DNA of 64,000 nt from Myxococcales bacterium (GTDB taxonomy: Bacteria > Myxococcota_A > Polyangia > Nannocystales > Nannocystaceae), in NCBI GenBank assembly GCA_014240065.1, contig JAAZXR010000015.1, positions 1-64,000 of the forward strand, written 5' to 3'. The position numbers were made by a program, and so were the translations under genes. Below, piece by piece: positions 14,693 to 24,727 of the stretch (positions within the stretch are counted from its first letter, which is position 1; each line of letters opens with the position of its first letter). The notes beneath the pieces are model-generated. The model made no database searches, was not told where the DNA came from, and saw only the letters and a program-made list of their open reading frames with translations.

Positions 14693-15745
14693 ATGGCTAA
14701 GCAATGCATCGGAATTGATATTGGGCACCACGCGATCAAACTTGTCCAACTCAAGGTGAGTCGCCGTGGCGAACACACCCTCCAGAACTTTGGCATCGAG
14801 CCCCTGCCCCAGCAGGCAATTGTGGACGGCTCCATCATGAATCACGGCGCGGTCACCGACGCGCTGCGAGAGCTGAAGTCGAGGATTCATCTCAAGGGCG
14901 CAGACGTCGCGCTGGCGGTGTCGGGTCGCGGCGTCACCATCAAGAAGCTCAAGATCCCGTTTATGGAAGAGGGCTTGGACGAGCAGATGGATTGGGAGGT
15001 GCAACAAAATATCCCCTTCGCTCGTGACGAGGTGCTCGTGGATCACACGGTGCTCGTCGAGCAGACCCCCGATGGTCAAATGGAGGTGCTGCTCGTGGCC
15101 GCCAAGCGTGACATGGTGGCCGAGTATATCCACGTGGTCCGTGACGCTGGCTTCAACGCGTCGGTCGTGGAGCCGGCCGCGTTCGCCATTCAAAACGCGG
15201 TCGACCAAGCGGTCGGCTTCGCGCCGGGCGAGATCGTGGGGCTCGTCAATGTGGGGGCCATTCACTCGAGCATCTCCGTGGTGCTCGAGGGGGCGCCGGT
15301 CTTCACCCGCGACATCACAAAGGGCGGCAACACCTACACCGACGCGATCATGCAGAAGCTCGGTGTGAGCTTTGACGCGGGCGAGGCGTACAAGGTCGGA
15401 GGATCCGCGCCCGGCACGTCGGACGTCGTACCTCACGAGGTGCCGGTGGTCATCTCCGAGATTTCGCAGGAGATCGCGCTGGAGTTCCAGCGCTCCATCG
15501 ACTTTTTCATCAACGATAGCGTAGAGGGGCGGCTCTCTCGCATCTTCCTGACGGGAGGGACGGCGCTCGTCTCACAGCTCGCGCAGGCGGTTCAGGAACG
15601 AGCGAGGATTCCCGTGCACATCTTGAATCCATTTGAACGCACCACCATCGATGAACGGCGATGGGACATGCAATACCTGCAAGAGAACGCCCCCGTCGCC
15701 TCCGCGGCGTTTGGCTTGGCGCTTAGAAAAGTGGGGGACTGTTGA
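14693..15745 (+). CDS. pilM: Type IV pilus assembly protein PilM
   Basis: PilM is the cytoplasmic, actin-like ATP-binding protein that binds the N-terminal tail of PilN and links the inner-membrane alignment complex to the pilus motors. The 350-aa product starts MAKQCIGIDIGHHAIKLVQL, a classic FtsA/PilM N-terminus, has GLVNVGAIHSSISVV as the phosphate-2 type motif, and FLTGGTALVSQLAQAVQ near the C-terminus. It has the strongest ribosome-binding site in the operon (AAGGAGGTG, 8-10 nt before the ATG). It is followed within 1 nt by pilN. Confidence 0.97.
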   Translation: MAKQCIGIDIGHHAIKLVQLKVSRRGEHTLQNFGIEPLPQQAIVDGSIMNHGAVTDALRELKSRIHLKGADVALAVSGRGVTIKKLKIPFMEEGLDEQMDWEVQQNIPFARDEVLVDHTVLVEQTPDGQMEVLLVAAKRDMVAEYIHVVRDAGFNASVVEPAAFAIQNAVDQAVGFAPGEIVGLVNVGAIHSSISVVLEGAPVFTRDITKGGNTYTDAIMQKLGVSFDAGEAYKVGGSAPGTSDVVPHEVPVVISEISQEIALEFQRSIDFFINDSVEGRLSRIFLTGGTALVSQLAQAVQERARIPVHILNPFERTTIDERRWDMQYLQENAPVASAAFGLALRKVGDC

Positions 15746-15746
15746 G

Positions 15747-16436
15747 ATGATGATCAAAGTAAACCTCTCTCCTAACCGCAAGCGGCGAAAGGCCGGACCC
15801 TCAGGGAAGAAGAAGGTCGAGACGCAAGTGACGGCCGGGTCAGCGCTGCTCGGCGTCTACTTTGTGGGCTGGTTGATGGTCGGTGGCGGTCTGTGGTGGA
15901 CCCTCTACCAAAAGCAGGCCGACACCGAGGCGAAGCGGCAGGAGGCCGCTCGCATGAAAAAAGAGATCAAAAAGATCAAAGAGCAGATCGATGAAGAATA
16001 TCTTCAGGCGGTCAAGGCTCGCTACGAGCAGCTCAAGGTCGCGATCGCGAAGCTGGAGGCCCAGAAGCGGACCCCAATGTTCGTGATGGACGAGCTCATG
16101 AACGTGCTCACCCAAGGCAAGCTCCCTGACATCGACGAGGAGCAGCAACGGAAGGTGACCACCGCAGATCCGGACGCCGAACTCAATCCTATGTGGGACG
16201 CGTCCAGCGTGTGGGTAACCGAGATGAACGAGAGTGGCAACGTGGTCGAAATGGAGGGTGGCGCGCGAGATGCCTCGGACTTGAGCGAGTTCCTAAAGCG
16301 CCTGCGGGCCTCCTCACGCTTCGCAGGGGTCTCTCACCCGAAGTACAAGCTCGTCGAAGAAAAAGGGACCAGCACCAAAAAGGTCCGCCGCTTCATCGCC
16401 TTTAACCTCACCTTGCGCGTGACCCACTGGGATTAG
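15747..16436 (+). CDS. pilN: Type IV pilus assembly protein PilN
   Basis: PilN is an inner-membrane protein that pairs with PilO and docks PilM through its cytoplasmic tail. The 229-aa product starts MMIKVNLSPNRKRRK (the canonical PilM-binding 'INLSPNR' type motif). A single membrane helix (LLGVYFVGWLMVGGGLWW) follows at about residues 31-50, then a coiled coil and a ferredoxin-like periplasmic domain. Start ATG 15747 lies 2 nt after the pilM stop; a second ATG follows at 15750. A longer ORF back to 15633 lies within pilM and is ignored. Confidence 0.95.
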   Translation: MMIKVNLSPNRKRRKAGPSGKKKVETQVTAGSALLGVYFVGWLMVGGGLWWTLYQKQADTEAKRQEAARMKKEIKKIKEQIDEEYLQAVKARYEQLKVAIAKLEAQKRTPMFVMDELMNVLTQGKLPDIDEEQQRKVTTADPDAELNPMWDASSVWVTEMNESGNVVEMEGGARDASDLSEFLKRLRASSRFAGVSHPKYKLVEEKGTSTKKVRRFIAFNLTLRVTHWD

Positions 16437-16446
16437 GAGTCGAACG

Positions 16447-17085
16447 ATGGCCAATCAATTAGATGATCTCGCGACGCGACCGAAATGGCAGCTAGCCCTC
16501 GTTTGGGTGACAGCCTCTGCGCTCCTTGTAGGTGGCTGGTACTACCTCTACTTTGAAGAGGCGTTGAAGGACAACGCCGCCGCAGCGGCCGACGTGCAGA
16601 AGCAGTCAAAGGACCTCGCGCGCATGAAGGAGCGCCTCGCGAACTTCGAGCAGGAGATGGCGGAAGCCAAAGCGATGGAGCAGGAACTCGAGGAGAAGAA
16701 GCGAAAGCTCCCCCTGAGTTCCGCGACCATTGATCACCTCATGCGCAAGTTTCAGCAGCAGGGGCGCCTCGTGGGCGTCTCCATCGAGAACTGGACGCCA
16801 AGCCAAGAGCAGAAGCTCGATTTCTACGCGAAGATGCCGGTGGATGTCGTCGCCCGGGGGACCTGGCTGCAGTTTGGCGAGTTCTTTCGACGGATCTCCG
16901 ATATGGAGCAGATCGTCAATATTGAGGGAGTCAAGTTTAACCTCGGCAAGTCAAAAGAGAGCGCGGACCTTGAGCTCGATGTCGATTTCATGGCGAGCAC
17001 ATTCCGTTTTCTCGATGAGTCCGAACGGTCGAAGTCTGTCGGTTCGGACGGCAAGAGCTCACGAAAGAAGGGAGCATCGAAATGA
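16447..17085 (+). CDS. pilO: Type IV pilus assembly protein PilO
   Basis: PilO is the inner-membrane partner of PilN. The 212-aa protein has a membrane helix near residues 14-34 (WQLALVWVTASALLVGGWYY), a long coiled coil (about 40-90, KDNAAAAADVQKQSKDLARM and following) and a periplasmic ferredoxin-like domain. Start is ATG 16447 with GGAGT upstream. It overlaps pilP by 4 nt, so translation is coupled. Confidence 0.95.
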   Translation: MANQLDDLATRPKWQLALVWVTASALLVGGWYYLYFEEALKDNAAAAADVQKQSKDLARMKERLANFEQEMAEAKAMEQELEEKKRKLPLSSATIDHLMRKFQQQGRLVGVSIENWTPSQEQKLDFYAKMPVDVVARGTWLQFGEFFRRISDMEQIVNIEGVKFNLGKSKESADLELDVDFMASTFRFLDESERSKSVGSDGKSSRKKGASK

Positions 17086-17672
17086 ATCGACGAAATGTAA
17101 CCCTCAAAATACTTGTGCCGGTGGCCCTCGCGGTGGTCACCCCCATCACGGCGTGCGCGGATGACCCACCAGCGACGGTGGCGAAGAAGGCAAAAGCTGC
17201 GGCGGGGAAGGACCGCTCAGAGTCCGCCAAAAACCGACGCGGTCAGGCCGAGGAACCGGTGCTGGCCGAGGCGCGTGTGAAATCGGATCCGCTGACGCGC
17301 GAGAATTTCGGCCCGGAGATGCGCGACCCGTTTAGGAGTTTCCTCATTGACGAGACCATTCAGGCAGCTGAGGAGGCCCCCGTCATCGCCGAGCGGCAAC
17401 GTGAAGTTCACATGCGGACCTACAACTTCGAGGACCTCTCCCTCATCGGCATCATTCGATCCAAACGCGGCGTCGAGCCGCGGGCGTTGTTTGTCGCCAC
17501 GGATGGGATCAGCGGGACGATCAAACAGGGTCAGTACTTCAGCAGAGCGGAAGTCCTCTTATCGAGTGTCAACACGGGCTACGTGGAAATTGAAATTGTC
17601 GACGAGAATCTAGCAAAAGGGCTGAACCTTACAAACGGGGAAACCCGCGCAATTTATCTCAAGAGAGAGTAA
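17082..17672 (+). CDS. pilP: Type IV pilus assembly lipoprotein PilP
   Basis: PilP is a lipoprotein that bridges the PilN/PilO complex to the PilQ secretin. The signal peptide ends in lipobox ITAC (Cys25). A basic, disordered linker (residues 30-70) precedes the PilP beta domain (about 85-196; LSLIGIIRSKRGVEPRALFV, then GYVEIEIVDENL). The 4-nt overlap with pilO and the single-base overlap with pilQ (TAATG) show tight coupling. Confidence 0.95.
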   Translation: MNRRNVTLKILVPVALAVVTPITACADDPPATVAKKAKAAAGKDRSESAKNRRGQAEEPVLAEARVKSDPLTRENFGPEMRDPFRSFLIDETIQAAEEAPVIAERQREVHMRTYNFEDLSLIGIIRSKRGVEPRALFVATDGISGTIKQGQYFSRAEVLLSSVNTGYVEIEIVDENLAKGLNLTNGETRAIYLKRE

Positions 17673-20600
17673 TGGAGTTCTTCAACATGAACACGCGATC
17701 GCGAAATCAACTTTGGACCCCCCTCAAGGCATTGGCGCTGCCAATCGCTCTGGTCGCAGCCTTCCGCCCCTACGGGAGCGCGGATGCTGCGAATGAGCTG
17801 CGAGTAGCGGCGAACAAATTACCGGCCGGCAAGCTGCTCGCCCCCGGCAGTGTGAATCGGGTCGACGGGCTGTCCGTAGAGGAGGCAGAGGACGGGACCA
17901 CGACACTGCTGCTTCGAGGGACGTCGAAGGCGACGTTTAATGTGTACCGTCTTGAGGGGCCAGATCGGCTCGTCGTCGATATCTCTTCGGCCGCCCGCGG
18001 CAAGGTCGTCCCGTTTATCTCCGCTGATACGTGGGCCGTCGGTCGCGTGAACATCGGGCCTGTCTCCGAAGGAGGTGGCGAGGTGCTGCGCGTCACCGTC
18101 GATCTGAAGCGCGAGTCCAGCTACCTGGTCGTACCAGCCGGCAACGATCTCAACATCACGGTGAGCCCGAGCGAGGTGCCGCCGGAGGCATATTTCTCGC
18201 GGAAGTCGGCCTCTGAGCGGCGGAGCGAGATCCGGCGCATGCAGGCGGACGCCGCGACGGTCAAACACGAGGCAGACAAGCGGCTGAGCGCCGCGCTCGC
18301 AGCCGCTGAGACGGCCCAAGAGCGGGCTCGTGAGGCGGAACATCGGGTTGAATTGGCGGTCTCCGAGTTGAAGACCGCGAAGGGCGAGGGGCGCCGGCGT
18401 GGGCGTGAGCAGCGGCGAATCAAAGAGCGGGAGCGCGAGCTGAACGCGGCCAGGTCCGCGGCCAACAAGGCGCAGAAGCGCGCCGACGGCGCGATCGCGA
18501 AGGCCGAAGGGATTCGGCGCGAGGCGGAGCGTGAGGCTCGCGCGTTGCGCATGGCCGCGCAACAAGACGCGGCCGCGATTCGTGCGCAGGCGAAGGAGTA
18601 CCGCGACGCAGCGGCGAGTCTCAGGAACGAGGCGAGGGTGACGAAGGCGGCGGCCAACAAGTCGGAGGCGGAGGCGCTTCGGCGGATACGCGAAGCGGAG
18701 GCACGAGCGGCGGAGGCGTCGGCTTTCCGGGCAGACGCCAAGGCGGCCCAGCTGGAGGCCGCGTCTTCCCAAGAGGCTGCGAGGATCGCCCGTGGGGAGG
18801 CAGAGCGCCTGCGTGACGCGGCGGCGAAGGCGAAGACCGACGCAGCGAAGAAAGAGGCGAACGCGACGGCGGCGCAAGCGGAGGCGAGGGCGCTGCGCGC
18901 GGAAGCGGAGGCCATTCGCGCGACGGCCGAGCGTATGCGCTCGGAGGGCCTCGCGGCGAAGTCTGCGGGAGAGCGACTGCAGCGAGAGGCGGAGGTGCTA
19001 AAGGACGCCAACTCGAAGGAGGCGGCGCGATTGCGCTCCGAGATGGAATCACAAAAAGCGGCAGCGTTGGCAGCCCGGGCAGAGGCGGAGAGCCTTCGCG
19101 CGACGGCGTTGGCTGCGAGGGCGGAAGCGGAGGAGCTCCGGGCTACGGCCAAGGACGCCGCTGAGCGCGCGCGCGCAGATCGACAGGACGCCGCGAGTCA
19201 GCGCAAGGCGAGCATCGAGTACGCGTTGAAACAGCGTGAGAGCGCGAAGGTGCTCCTCCTCGCGGCGAAAACAGCTGCCCGGTCCACCCAAAATGATCGT
19301 GACGAAGCCAAGGTTCGGAATGAAGAGGCATCACGAGTGCTCGCGGACGCGAGGGCTCGGGCGAAGCATGCATCGAAGGCACAAAAGTCGGAGTACGAGC
19401 GGCTCGTGAGGCACGCGGAGTCGGCGAAGCGCACAGCCGCGAGTCGCGTGGCGGTCGCCGAGAAAAAAATTCGAGAGATCGACACGAACGGGGGCGTGCT
19501 TCGGGATGCGCTCGACGAGCAGCGGTCCGAGAAAAATACGCTGATTGAGGATCTTGAGCGCCGAGCGCGAGAATACGAGACCCTGACTTCGCAGGTAGAG
19601 CAGGCCCGCGCGGCGCTTCGAAATACCGAGTCAGCGTCTGGCAGAAAAAAGGTCGCGTCTCGCAAGGCCGCCAAGAAAATAGACAGCGAACTCGAGGCGC
19701 GCACCGCGAAGCTGCGCGCTGTAGAAGCCCGCCTCGAGGCCGTGGAGTCGACCCTGGCGAAGAAAACGGGCAAGCTTGATAAGCTGTCGGCTTCGCTCGA
19801 TGCGGCGGAGCAGAAGCTGGCGGCATCGATCACGCGCGGTGCTCAAGTCACCACAGTGGAGGAGGAATGGCGTAGCGGAGTCGCCGAGGCGGCCGCGTCG
19901 AAGGTCAAGGACGTCCGCTTTGAGGACGGACCGAACGAGTCGAGGGTCATCATCGAAGTCGAGGGGCCAATGATCTACGCGGGGAGCAACCTCACGCCGA
20001 CGATGAAGCTGCTCGCGCTTGAGGGGGCGGACATCGGTCAGCAGCTCGAACGTAGTCTCGACGCCTCTGGCTTCGGCGGTCCTGTTCGCACGGTGACCAG
20101 CTTCAAGGAGCGCGACACTGTGAAGGTGATCGTCGCCATGCAAGAGGACGCGTCACCGCGTCTCGAAGAGCAGCCCGGGCGGCTCGTTCTTCGCTTCCCG
20201 CGCTCGCAGCCTCGCAAGTCGGAGCCAGCGTCGAACCGCGTGGTCTCCGTGGCGTCGCAGCAGGTCGCGGGCTTCGCGACAGCGCCGGCAGCGCTGGCGA
20301 CGCGAAGCGCGAAACGATCGCGTTCGAAGTGGCGCGGTGAGCGGATCGATCTTGAGATTCAAGACGCGCCGATTAAGGACATCCTCTTGTTGTTCAGCGA
20401 TATCGGCCGCGTGAATATCATCGCCGGCGACGGCGTTGACGGACAGGTCACAATGCGGCTGAACTCTGTCCCGTGGGACCAAGCCCTCGATATTATCCTT
20501 CGGTCGCTGAAGCTGGGGATGGTGCAAGAGGGCAATATCATCCGTGTCGCGACGCTGTCCGAGCTTGAGGCGGAACGCGCCGCTGCGATCGAGAAGGCGA

Positions 20601-21634
20601 ACGCGCAGGTGCGTCTCAAGCCCCTGGAGACCCGGTTGATCCCGCTGTCCTACGCGGCGGTCAGCGATATGGCCGGGAAGGTTGGCACCGTGCTGAGCTC
20701 ACGCGGCTCGGTGACTCCCGACGAGCGGACGAACACGCTCATCGTGATGGATGTGGTGGAGAATATCGCCATCGCGGAGCAGCTGGTCAACAAGCTCGAC
20801 AGCCAAACACCGCAGGTGACGATCGAGGCGCGCATCGTCGAGGCCCGTACAAACTGGCTCCGTGAGCTAGGGATCCAGTGGGGCTTTGACTTCACCGCGA
20901 CTCCCGGTACTGGCAACCCGACGGGGCTGTGGTTCCCGAACTCTCTTGGGGTCGCGGGTGGCAGCGGCGCAGTAGGAGGTCAGCAGATCACCTCTGGGTT
21001 CCTGCTTCCTTCCGCGCAAGCGACGCCGAATTATGTCGTCGACTTGCCTGCGGCAGCCGGTACGGGCGCCGGTGGTGCGGTCGGGTTCTCCTTCGGGAGC
21101 GTCGACGGCAACCTGAACACGAACTTGAGGCTGTCAGCGGCGGAGGACGTCGGTGAGGTCCGCATCATCTCCGCTCCAAAAATCTCGACCCTCGACAACA
21201 CCCAGGCGACCATTGAACAAGGTGTTCAGATTCCGATCTCGCAGGTGTCTGCGCAGGGCGTGAACACACGGTACGTGAACGCGACGCTCGGACTCTCGGT
21301 GACCCCCCACGTGACCAACGAGGGGTCGGTGATGTTGGAGGTGCAGGTTCAAAAGAACGAGGCCGACTTCGTCAACACCGGCGCCCGGGGTGATCCGACG
21401 ATCTTGACCAAGAGCGCGACCTCACAGATGCTGGTGCAGGACGGCGACACAGCGGTCATCGGTGGTATCTTCACCCGCAACCAATCGGTGAACCGCAAGA
21501 AAGTGCCGTGGATCTCGGAGGTGCCGATCCTCGGGTGGTTCTTCAAGAACAAGCGAGAGGCGGACACTCGTACGGAGGTGTTGATCTTCCTGACGCCGAA
21601 GATCATCAACCGCAGCACCAGCATCGGCGGGTAG
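17672..21634 (+). CDS. pilQ: PilQ secretin with a giant coiled-coil insertion, 1320 aa
   Basis: PilQ forms the outer-membrane pore through which the pilus emerges. Domains in order: a signal peptide (1-39); AMIN domain 1 (about 62-165); an Ala/Arg/Glu-rich coiled coil (about 178-728); AMIN domain 2 (about 745-845); a short linker; N0/STN domain (about 890-960, DAPIKDILLLFSDIGRVNI); secretin N1 (about 985-1045); the secretin barrel (about 1060-1312, VPWISEVPILGWFFKN and TEVLIFLTPKII at the end). Typical PilQ proteins are roughly 650-900 residues, so the coil alone explains the extra length. There are no frameshifts or stops. The ATG at 17672 overlaps the pilP stop; ATG 17687 is an alternative. 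A strong terminator follows. Confidence 0.96.
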   Translation: MEFFNMNTRSRNQLWTPLKALALPIALVAAFRPYGSADAANELRVAANKLPAGKLLAPGSVNRVDGLSVEEAEDGTTTLLLRGTSKATFNVYRLEGPDRLVVDISSAARGKVVPFISADTWAVGRVNIGPVSEGGGEVLRVTVDLKRESSYLVVPAGNDLNITVSPSEVPPEAYFSRKSASERRSEIRRMQADAATVKHEADKRLSAALAAAETAQERAREAEHRVELAVSELKTAKGEGRRRGREQRRIKERERELNAARSAANKAQKRADGAIAKAEGIRREAEREARALRMAAQQDAAAIRAQAKEYRDAAASLRNEARVTKAAANKSEAEALRRIREAEARAAEASAFRADAKAAQLEAASSQEAARIARGEAERLRDAAAKAKTDAAKKEANATAAQAEARALRAEAEAIRATAERMRSEGLAAKSAGERLQREAEVLKDANSKEAARLRSEMESQKAAALAARAEAESLRATALAARAEAEELRATAKDAAERARADRQDAASQRKASIEYALKQRESAKVLLLAAKTAARSTQNDRDEAKVRNEEASRVLADARARAKHASKAQKSEYERLVRHAESAKRTAASRVAVAEKKIREIDTNGGVLRDALDEQRSEKNTLIEDLERRAREYETLTSQVEQARAALRNTESASGRKKVASRKAAKKIDSELEARTAKLRAVEARLEAVESTLAKKTGKLDKLSASLDAAEQKLAASITRGAQVTTVEEEWRSGVAEAAASKVKDVRFEDGPNESRVIIEVEGPMIYAGSNLTPTMKLLALEGADIGQQLERSLDASGFGGPVRTVTSFKERDTVKVIVAMQEDASPRLEEQPGRLVLRFPRSQPRKSEPASNRVVSVASQQVAGFATAPAALATRSAKRSRSKWRGERIDLEIQDAPIKDILLLFSDIGRVNIIAGDGVDGQVTMRLNSVPWDQALDIILRSLKLGMVQEGNIIRVATLSELEAERAAAIEKANAQVRLKPLETRLIPLSYAAVSDMAGKVGTVLSSRGSVTPDERTNTLIVMDVVENIAIAEQLVNKLDSQTPQVTIEARIVEARTNWLRELGIQWGFDFTATPGTGNPTGLWFPNSLGVAGGSGAVGGQQITSGFLLPSAQATPNYVVDLPAAAGTGAGGAVGFSFGSVDGNLNTNLRLSAAEDVGEVRIISAPKISTLDNTQATIEQGVQIPISQVSAQGVNTRYVNATLGLSVTPHVTNEGSVMLEVQVQKNEADFVNTGARGDPTILTKSATSQMLVQDGDTAVIGGIFTRNQSVNRKKVPWISEVPILGWFFKNKREADTRTEVLIFLTPKIINRSTSIGG
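18203..19855 (+). other. Coiled-coil insert of PilQ (protein region)
   Basis: Residues about 178-728 of PilQ are almost entirely A, R, E, K, L, D and S, with very few Pro or Gly until residue 600. Heptad-like spacing of Ala/Leu and repeated AEAE/LRAT blocks mark a long helix. The tandem 14-residue pair ALAARAEAESLRAT / ALAARAEAEELRAT lies at 465-492. Confidence 0.8.
19064..19147 (+). repeat. Tandem 42-bp repeat within the PilQ coil
   Basis: Two adjacent 42-bp units (19064-19105, 19106-19147) encode 14-residue repeats differing at one residue. The nucleotides differ at several wobble positions, so this is old duplication or selection at protein level, not a recent expansion. Confidence 0.7.
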
Positions 21635-24253: not shown

Positions 24254-24370
24254 CGTTTTCGGGTGCGAGCGTCGTGCGAGCGGCCGTCGAGGATCGCGGA
24301 TCGCGTGAAACGCGCGGTGCGGTTGCGGCTTGACCCGGAACCACCGGGTCTGCGAACCTTCGACCGCGCC

Positions 24371-24727
24371 ATGAAGGACATTTTACAAAAGATCGTGAAC
24401 GAAACCCCGGGGGCCCGCGCCGCAATCTTGATGGGTTTCGATGGCATCGCGGTGGATCAATACGTGGACCCCGAGGTGGAGGATCCCGATATTGAGTCGA
24501 TGGCGATGGAGTTCTCGTTCCGTTTCATCGAGCTTCGGACGGCCGCGGAGAGCCTCGGTATGGGCGCCCTCAGCGATATCGCTGTGAAGGCAGAGTTCGG
24601 CACATTCCTCGTGCGGGTGCTCACCGAGGAGTATTTCTCGGCCACGCTGCTCGGTGAAACCGGCCATTTCGGCAAGGGTCGGTGGCTCCTCCGGTCGACC
24701 GCTCCTCAGCTCGCTGGAGAGCTCTAA
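24371..24727 (+). CDS. Roadblock/LC7-domain protein
   Basis: The 118-aa protein, MKDILQKIVNETPGARAAIL then MGFDGIAVDQYV, is a small alpha/beta domain of the roadblock/LC7 (MglB) superfamily. Such proteins act as GTPase-activating or scaffold partners of small Ras-like GTPases in gliding and polarity of myxobacteria. No GTPase gene is next to it in this window. GTG 24263 with TAGCGT 6 nt upstream opens a 36-residue N-terminal extension; I prefer ATG 24371 because the extension looks non-conserved, but this is open. It precedes aroQ by 16 nt. Confidence 0.85.
   Translation: MKDILQKIVNETPGARAAILMGFDGIAVDQYVDPEVEDPDIESMAMEFSFRFIELRTAAESLGMGALSDIAVKAEFGTFLVRVLTEEYFSATLLGETGHFGKGRWLLRSTAPQLAGEL

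Follow-up and report, generated by a model that had tools for sequence, protein, structure and literature searches.

The window, by which we mean the whole 64,000-nucleotide stretch of DNA that was analysed, belongs to a 4.7 Mb genome in 235 contigs and carries a pilMNOPQ gene order in which pilQ comes last. On the forward strand, pilM (14693..15745; PF11104, 2.5e-65) is followed by pilN (15741..16436; PF05137, 2.9e-08), pilO (16447..17085; PF04350, 6e-25) and pilP (17082..17672), all four being of ordinary length in a length comparison. The identity of pilP was taken from its operon position and a PF04351 match (1.1e-4) slightly under the Pfam cut-off (22.6 vs 25.6 bits). After pilQ come a shikimate kinase gene, identified with Pfam, and an ORF that is aroB-like by eye, and retraction ATPases were found in the same genome. 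A small ORF near the operon (24263-24727, forward strand) resembles by eye a Roadblock/LC7 (MglB-like) protein; a Pfam search with its codons 24296-24724 gave no match.

A single ORF (17672..21634, forward strand) encodes the 1320 aa PilQ. Its product scores 405.6 bits against the NCBIfam PilQ model TIGR02515 (cut-off 284.35), which covers aa 889-1313, and M. xanthus PilQ (3jc8) matches aa 742-1316 with E=1.4e-148. Its closest counterparts are the PilQs of Enhygromyxa, Plesiocystis and an uncultured Nannocystaceae genome, from which we take the DNA to come from a member of Nannocystaceae. Judged by these matches, the protein is a bona fide PilQ, the secretin of the type IVa pilus. A first, sequence-only reading of this DNA had remarked that 1320 aa is long for a PilQ, and PilQs with solved structures indeed have 571-901 aa.

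The N-terminus is a probable signal peptide (aa 1 to ~39; 17672..17788), recognised by eye from its basic start, ALALPIALVAAF core and GSADA cleavage-like motif. The first wall-binding-type domain, AMIN1 (aa ~59-170; 17846..18181), has a weak AMIN-like Pfam match that is under the Pfam cut-off by sequence, and was assigned from the beta domain predicted by AF2. Foldseek matches of the window PilQ model are the AMIN domain of AmiC, M. xanthus PilQ and the B2 domain of N. meningitidis PilQ. A profile seeded with AMIN1 finds a homologue of it in every one of the 85 coil-bearing relatives described below, and the mean identity of AMIN1 within the family is 62%. Binding of AMIN1 to peptidoglycan is assumed from its predicted fold. 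After a coiled-coil insert (aa ~180-723; 18209..19840) comes AMIN2 (aa ~740-845; 19889..20206), which AF2 also predicts as a beta domain and which Pfam detects as AMIN at 4.6e-14 (best stretch 747-834). The remainder, aa 890-1320 (20339..21631), is covered by Pfam and TIGR02515 and contains N0 (STN, 914-959), N1 (Secretin_N, 987-1048) and the secretin barrel (Secretin, 1157-1312) in the expected order, with AMIN N-terminal of N0 by Pfam and AMIN fold. The sequence-only reading had proposed an AMIN1-coil-AMIN2 order and a periplasmic insert; the domain order bears this out and, together with the probable signal peptide, points to a periplasmic location of the coil.

The coiled-coil insert and its predicted structure

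The insert had originally been placed at 18203-19855 and called a coiled coil. The boundaries were accurate to within a few codons of the helices predicted by AF2 (nt 18209-19840), and several lines of evidence agree on its character. Alanine (27%), arginine (14%), glutamate (13%), lysine (8%) and leucine (7%) dominate its composition, and aa 178-730 contain no proline at all. Autocorrelation of residue classes peaks at lags 7, 14, 21, 28 and 35 (0.29, 0.30, 0.26, 0.25 and 0.27, against 0.19 expected), with z = 6.5 at lag 7. In a COILS-type calculation, for which the MTK matrix was entered by hand, 91% of the insert scores above 0.5, compared with 45% for composition-matched shuffles and 69% for the highest shuffle. 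The heptads of this calculation place mostly Ala and Leu at positions a and d, while e and g are rich in Arg and Glu.

The AF2 model of aa 39-863, built from eight family sequences (residue numbers are those of the fragment plus 38), consists of an AMIN-like beta domain, six helices and a second AMIN-like beta domain. The helices lie at aa 180-235, 240-343, 350-443, 449-565, 572-658 and 664-723, each 56-117 residues long with short loops between them. The first predicted break is a Gly-rich GEGRRRG stretch at aa ~236-240 (18377..18391), with glycines at 238, 240 and 244. Two further breaks, at aa ~566-572 (19367..19387) and at aa ~659-664 within SASGRKK (19646..19663), have counterparts in the Plesiocystis model at corresponding distances from AMIN2. 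In the shorter PilQ of Plesiocystis, the last three helices before AMIN2 are predicted with pLDDT of ~90. Because pTM is low (0.27 for the window fragment and 0.39 for Plesiocystis), these models fix neither how the helices pack nor which way the arm points. Foldseek searches with the helical part returned weak matches (E above 0.001) to antiparallel bundles, namely F-BAR domains and the hairpins of MacA/EmrA. It had been calculated that 550 residues would form a straight helix of about 80 nm, and this arithmetic is right; the insert cannot be one straight rod across the periplasm, and the coil is likely to fold back on itself.

Some other candidate explanations of the insert were rejected. 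An assembly or fusion artefact was dismissed, since cultured isolates share the design. Expansion of a DNA tandem repeat was discarded, the coil containing just two short two-copy arrays, as was a frameshift or overlapping gene, the other five frames across the coil containing stops and prolines. For a conserved stalk next to AMIN2, suggested by the Plesiocystis model, the helix breaks do recur at similar distances from AMIN2, but identity in this part is no higher than elsewhere in the coil, and we keep the stalk as a prediction. Two long antisense ORFs lie above the coil (17819-18877, 352 aa, and 18121-19152, 343 aa, both on the reverse strand); they are apparently by-products of GC-rich codon use.

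Distribution and evolution in the Myxococcota

The secretin core was used to search Myxococcota at class and phylum level, and retrieval of the loci then yielded 146 PilQs, most of them N-terminally complete; the complete ones come from 53 families. As long proteins were favoured in sampling, the frequencies are not estimates. Few relatives of the design had come to mind from the sequence of the window, an impression that the survey overturned, the design being common in this phylum: AMIN1-coil-AMIN2-N0-N1-secretin proteins were found as 85 complete PilQs in 27 genome families, Enhygromyxa, Plesiocystis and Paraliomyxa among them, counting complete proteins only and a coil of at least 150 residues. 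Coil length in these 85 ranges from 153 to 1987 residues (median 610). Every one of the 85 has an AMIN on both sides of the coil, at a median gap of 12 residues for AMIN1 and 25 for AMIN2, and in all of them the coil lies between AMIN1 and AMIN2 and not between a wall-binding domain and the barrel. In most coil-less relatives a short linker joins the same two AMINs, and from this comparison the coil looks like a linker that has grown, in the window PilQ into an alanine-rich coil of some 540 residues.

On the secretin tree (a quick search with SH-aLRT support only, rooted on the most distant Myxococcota PilQs), parsimony requires seven changes, which we read as one gain and about six losses. 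The gain is placed above the coil-less branch f31; one of the losses affects a large clade, and the other five are in smaller places. The coil is absent from the outgroup PilQ lineages, several of which have a third AMIN together with spacers that are acidic and disordered-looking. The PilQs of families f39, f30, f50 and f51 (L197, L199 and L204-L207) mostly have three AMINs with long spacers between them, which in those read are acidic and disordered-looking, an alternative spacer at the same positions. Within the coil-bearing clade, families f22 (L081, L082) and f4 (L085) have coil-less PilQs of 528-561 aa with no AMIN profile match, and these would need another route to polar localisation. 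Eleven members of the window's family, from three genera and with genomes of 6.6-13.2 Mb (G003, G009, G012, G115, G119, G122, G125, G130, G137, G140 and G143), gave no PilQ match at E <= 1e-60, which suggests that the type IVa pilus has been lost in them.

The coil evolves quickly in both sequence and length. Between close pairs, it changes its amino acids (dN) some 2-30 times as fast as the secretin, with coil dN/dS below 1 in all pairs except the most diverged. Coil length shifts by 60-200 residues between close relatives. Total length differs by 67 residues between two proteins with 99% identical secretins (G036/G107), by 134 at 98% identity (G080/G110) and by 210 at 95% identity (G209/G240). 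Mean coil identity within the family is 33-38% and even along the length save for the first ~30 residues, beyond which the family identity profile contains no conserved patch in the coil that points to a partner. Other features are retained. Of 56,746 coil residues, 46 are proline, where base composition alone predicts ~5489, a depletion of about 120-fold; heptad lags stand out in the mean of 84 coils, and the lag-7 z exceeds 3 in 51 of the 84. Indels in multiples of seven were considered and set aside (6 of 20 well-flanked cases against about 3 expected, few in number and biased by alignment). Together, dN/dS below 1, the exclusion of proline and the kept heptads point to selection on helix character. 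Selection thus keeps a long, helical, heptad-patterned coil and not its sequence or exact length, and coil length seems to be tolerated, not measured.

Possible roles of the coil

The reading that we prefer, and to which we give a little less than an even chance, is that the PilQ insert is a folded-back, length-tolerant arm that holds a second wall-binding domain off the ring, as an anchor with a wide footprint. In each of the 12-15 ring subunits, AMIN2 would sit next to the ring, at the base of a helical arm, and AMIN1 would form the tip of that arm. Doubled back into antiparallel segments, the arm would run through or along the wall layer. Each subunit would then make a near and a far wall contact, which would tether the ring to peptidoglycan at two radii, enlarge the area of anchorage and spread the force of retraction. 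It would also let PilQ monomers capture polar wall from farther off before they assemble. For the AMIN domains of M. xanthus PilQ, binding to septal and polar wall has been proposed; polar recruitment needs them, multimers may need them too, and one AMIN is enough (PMC10653833). Related lineages have coil-less PilQs in which two, one or no AMINs are present, so that pilus function as such probably does not depend on the arm. That the coil holds the secretin to the wall, one of the original suggestions, is plausible and the best supported of its possible functions, and it is a role that we still infer.

Instead, neighbouring subunits could pack their coils together on the periplasmic vestibule, as a cage, sleeve or bundle that would stiffen or guide the pilus; a cage or bundle was also among the original suggestions. 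A ring of the size known for homologues would bring 12-15 identical coils close together (PMC10653833), and heptads with Ala and Leu at a and d suit packing of helix against helix. However, a fixed sleeve should limit length, and coil lengths vary 13-fold across the phylum, with differences of 60-200 residues between close relatives; the coil sequence is not conserved either, and we regard this arrangement as unlikely.

We place lower again, as improbable, the idea that lineage-specific partners, for instance proteins of polarity or pilus assembly, dock on the coil. Long coiled coils often serve as scaffolds, and the presence of this one is lineage-specific, but the uniform 33-38% identity, with no conserved patch other than the first ~30 residues, speaks against a docking platform.

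Next in order, and more improbable still, the coil might be a nearly functionless expansion of the linker in which any soluble helical sequence is tolerated. Rapid evolution with large indels, the losses (one large clade among them) and the sister lineages with acidic, disordered-looking linkers at the same site all fit this reading. Against it stand dN/dS below 1 in nearly all close pairs, the ~120-fold depletion of proline with heptads kept, and the persistence of the coil across the majority of families sampled in a deep clade.

An enlarged periplasmic gap had also been offered as an explanation. In the sampled loci, PilM, PilN and PilP do not vary in length with the coil, and for PilO the correlation is weak (medians of 207 residues without a coil vs 212 with ordinary coils). 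The longest PilQs, 2097-2787 aa, were found in family f34 (L129-L136), together with PilNs of about 300-390 aa, whose extra length in those read is an acidic, disordered-looking C-terminal tail. As PilM/N/O/P keep stable lengths with or without a coil, the inner-membrane alignment complex would have the same reach in both, which argues against a deeper periplasm. Coiled-coil connectors from outer membrane to wall do exist elsewhere (SlpA, PMC9388160), but a coil that bridges an unusually deep periplasm, like the extra domains of Thermus/Deinococcus secretins or the coils of OmpM/SlpA, is very unlikely here, given that PilM/N/O/P are not lengthened with the coil, that the added length of f34 PilN is a disordered-looking tail, that coils reach about 2000 residues (up to 295 nm for the longest, if straight), and that the coil lies between two AMINs and not between AMIN2 and the ring.

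If arms of the kind we favour do anchor the pilus machine, the Myxococcota hold a natural length series from 0 to ~2000 residues, and a handle on how a hard-pulling pilus is fastened to a thin wall and how AMINs find the pole. Coil-bearing species are in culture (Plesiocystis pacifica, Enhygromyxa salina and Paraliomyxa miuraensis), which makes the question testable. It is possible, though we hold this more tentatively than the arm itself, that much of the Myxococcota builds pilus machines with long, radial helical arms that carry distal wall anchors and spread load, their length free over an order of magnitude. Load-spreading anchorage by arms is not known from any studied pilus machine.

Comparison with known systems

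A search of the open full-text literature found no description of an AMIN-coil-AMIN PilQ. A survey of myxobacterial type IV pili that includes Enhygromyxa and Plesiocystis, and reports tsaP in all myxobacteria examined, does not contain the word coil (PMC6060248), and a study of M. xanthus PilQ gives the number of AMINs in ten species with coils unmentioned (PMC10653833). Our own LysM search for TsaP gave unspecific matches.

The textbook pilus machine of the phylum is that of M. xanthus, whose PilQ (901 aa; 3jc8/3jc9) shares with the window protein the secretin family, polar wall-binding AMINs and the N0/N1/secretin core. It differs in having three AMINs on flexible linkers (PMC10653833) and no coil. 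None of the sampled PilQs branching outside the coil-bearing clade has a coil, and M. xanthus probably belongs to these coil-less lineages. The pilus machines of most coil-bearing bacteria probably grip the wall differently from that of Myxococcus. Among the Myxococcota, the PilQs of f39, f41, f50, f51 and f30 also have extended spacers between AMINs; unlike the window coil, these are acidic and disordered-looking, and most of the proteins have three AMINs.

Further afield, the PilQs of P. aeruginosa and Neisseria have two AMINs (PMC10653833). Those of P. aeruginosa (6ve2), V. cholerae (6w6m) and Neisseria (4av2) have the N0/N1/secretin core in common with the window protein, but are 571-761 aa long compared with its 1320 aa. 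To our knowledge, no long coil is known in any of the three. Deinococcus SlpA and Thermotogota OmpM resemble the window protein in having a long periplasmic coil, in a protein that links outer membrane to wall. Their coil crosses the periplasm from the wall-binding domain to the barrel, whereas the coil of the window PilQ lies between two wall-binding domains and has a length that is not tied to the reach of PilM/N/O/P.
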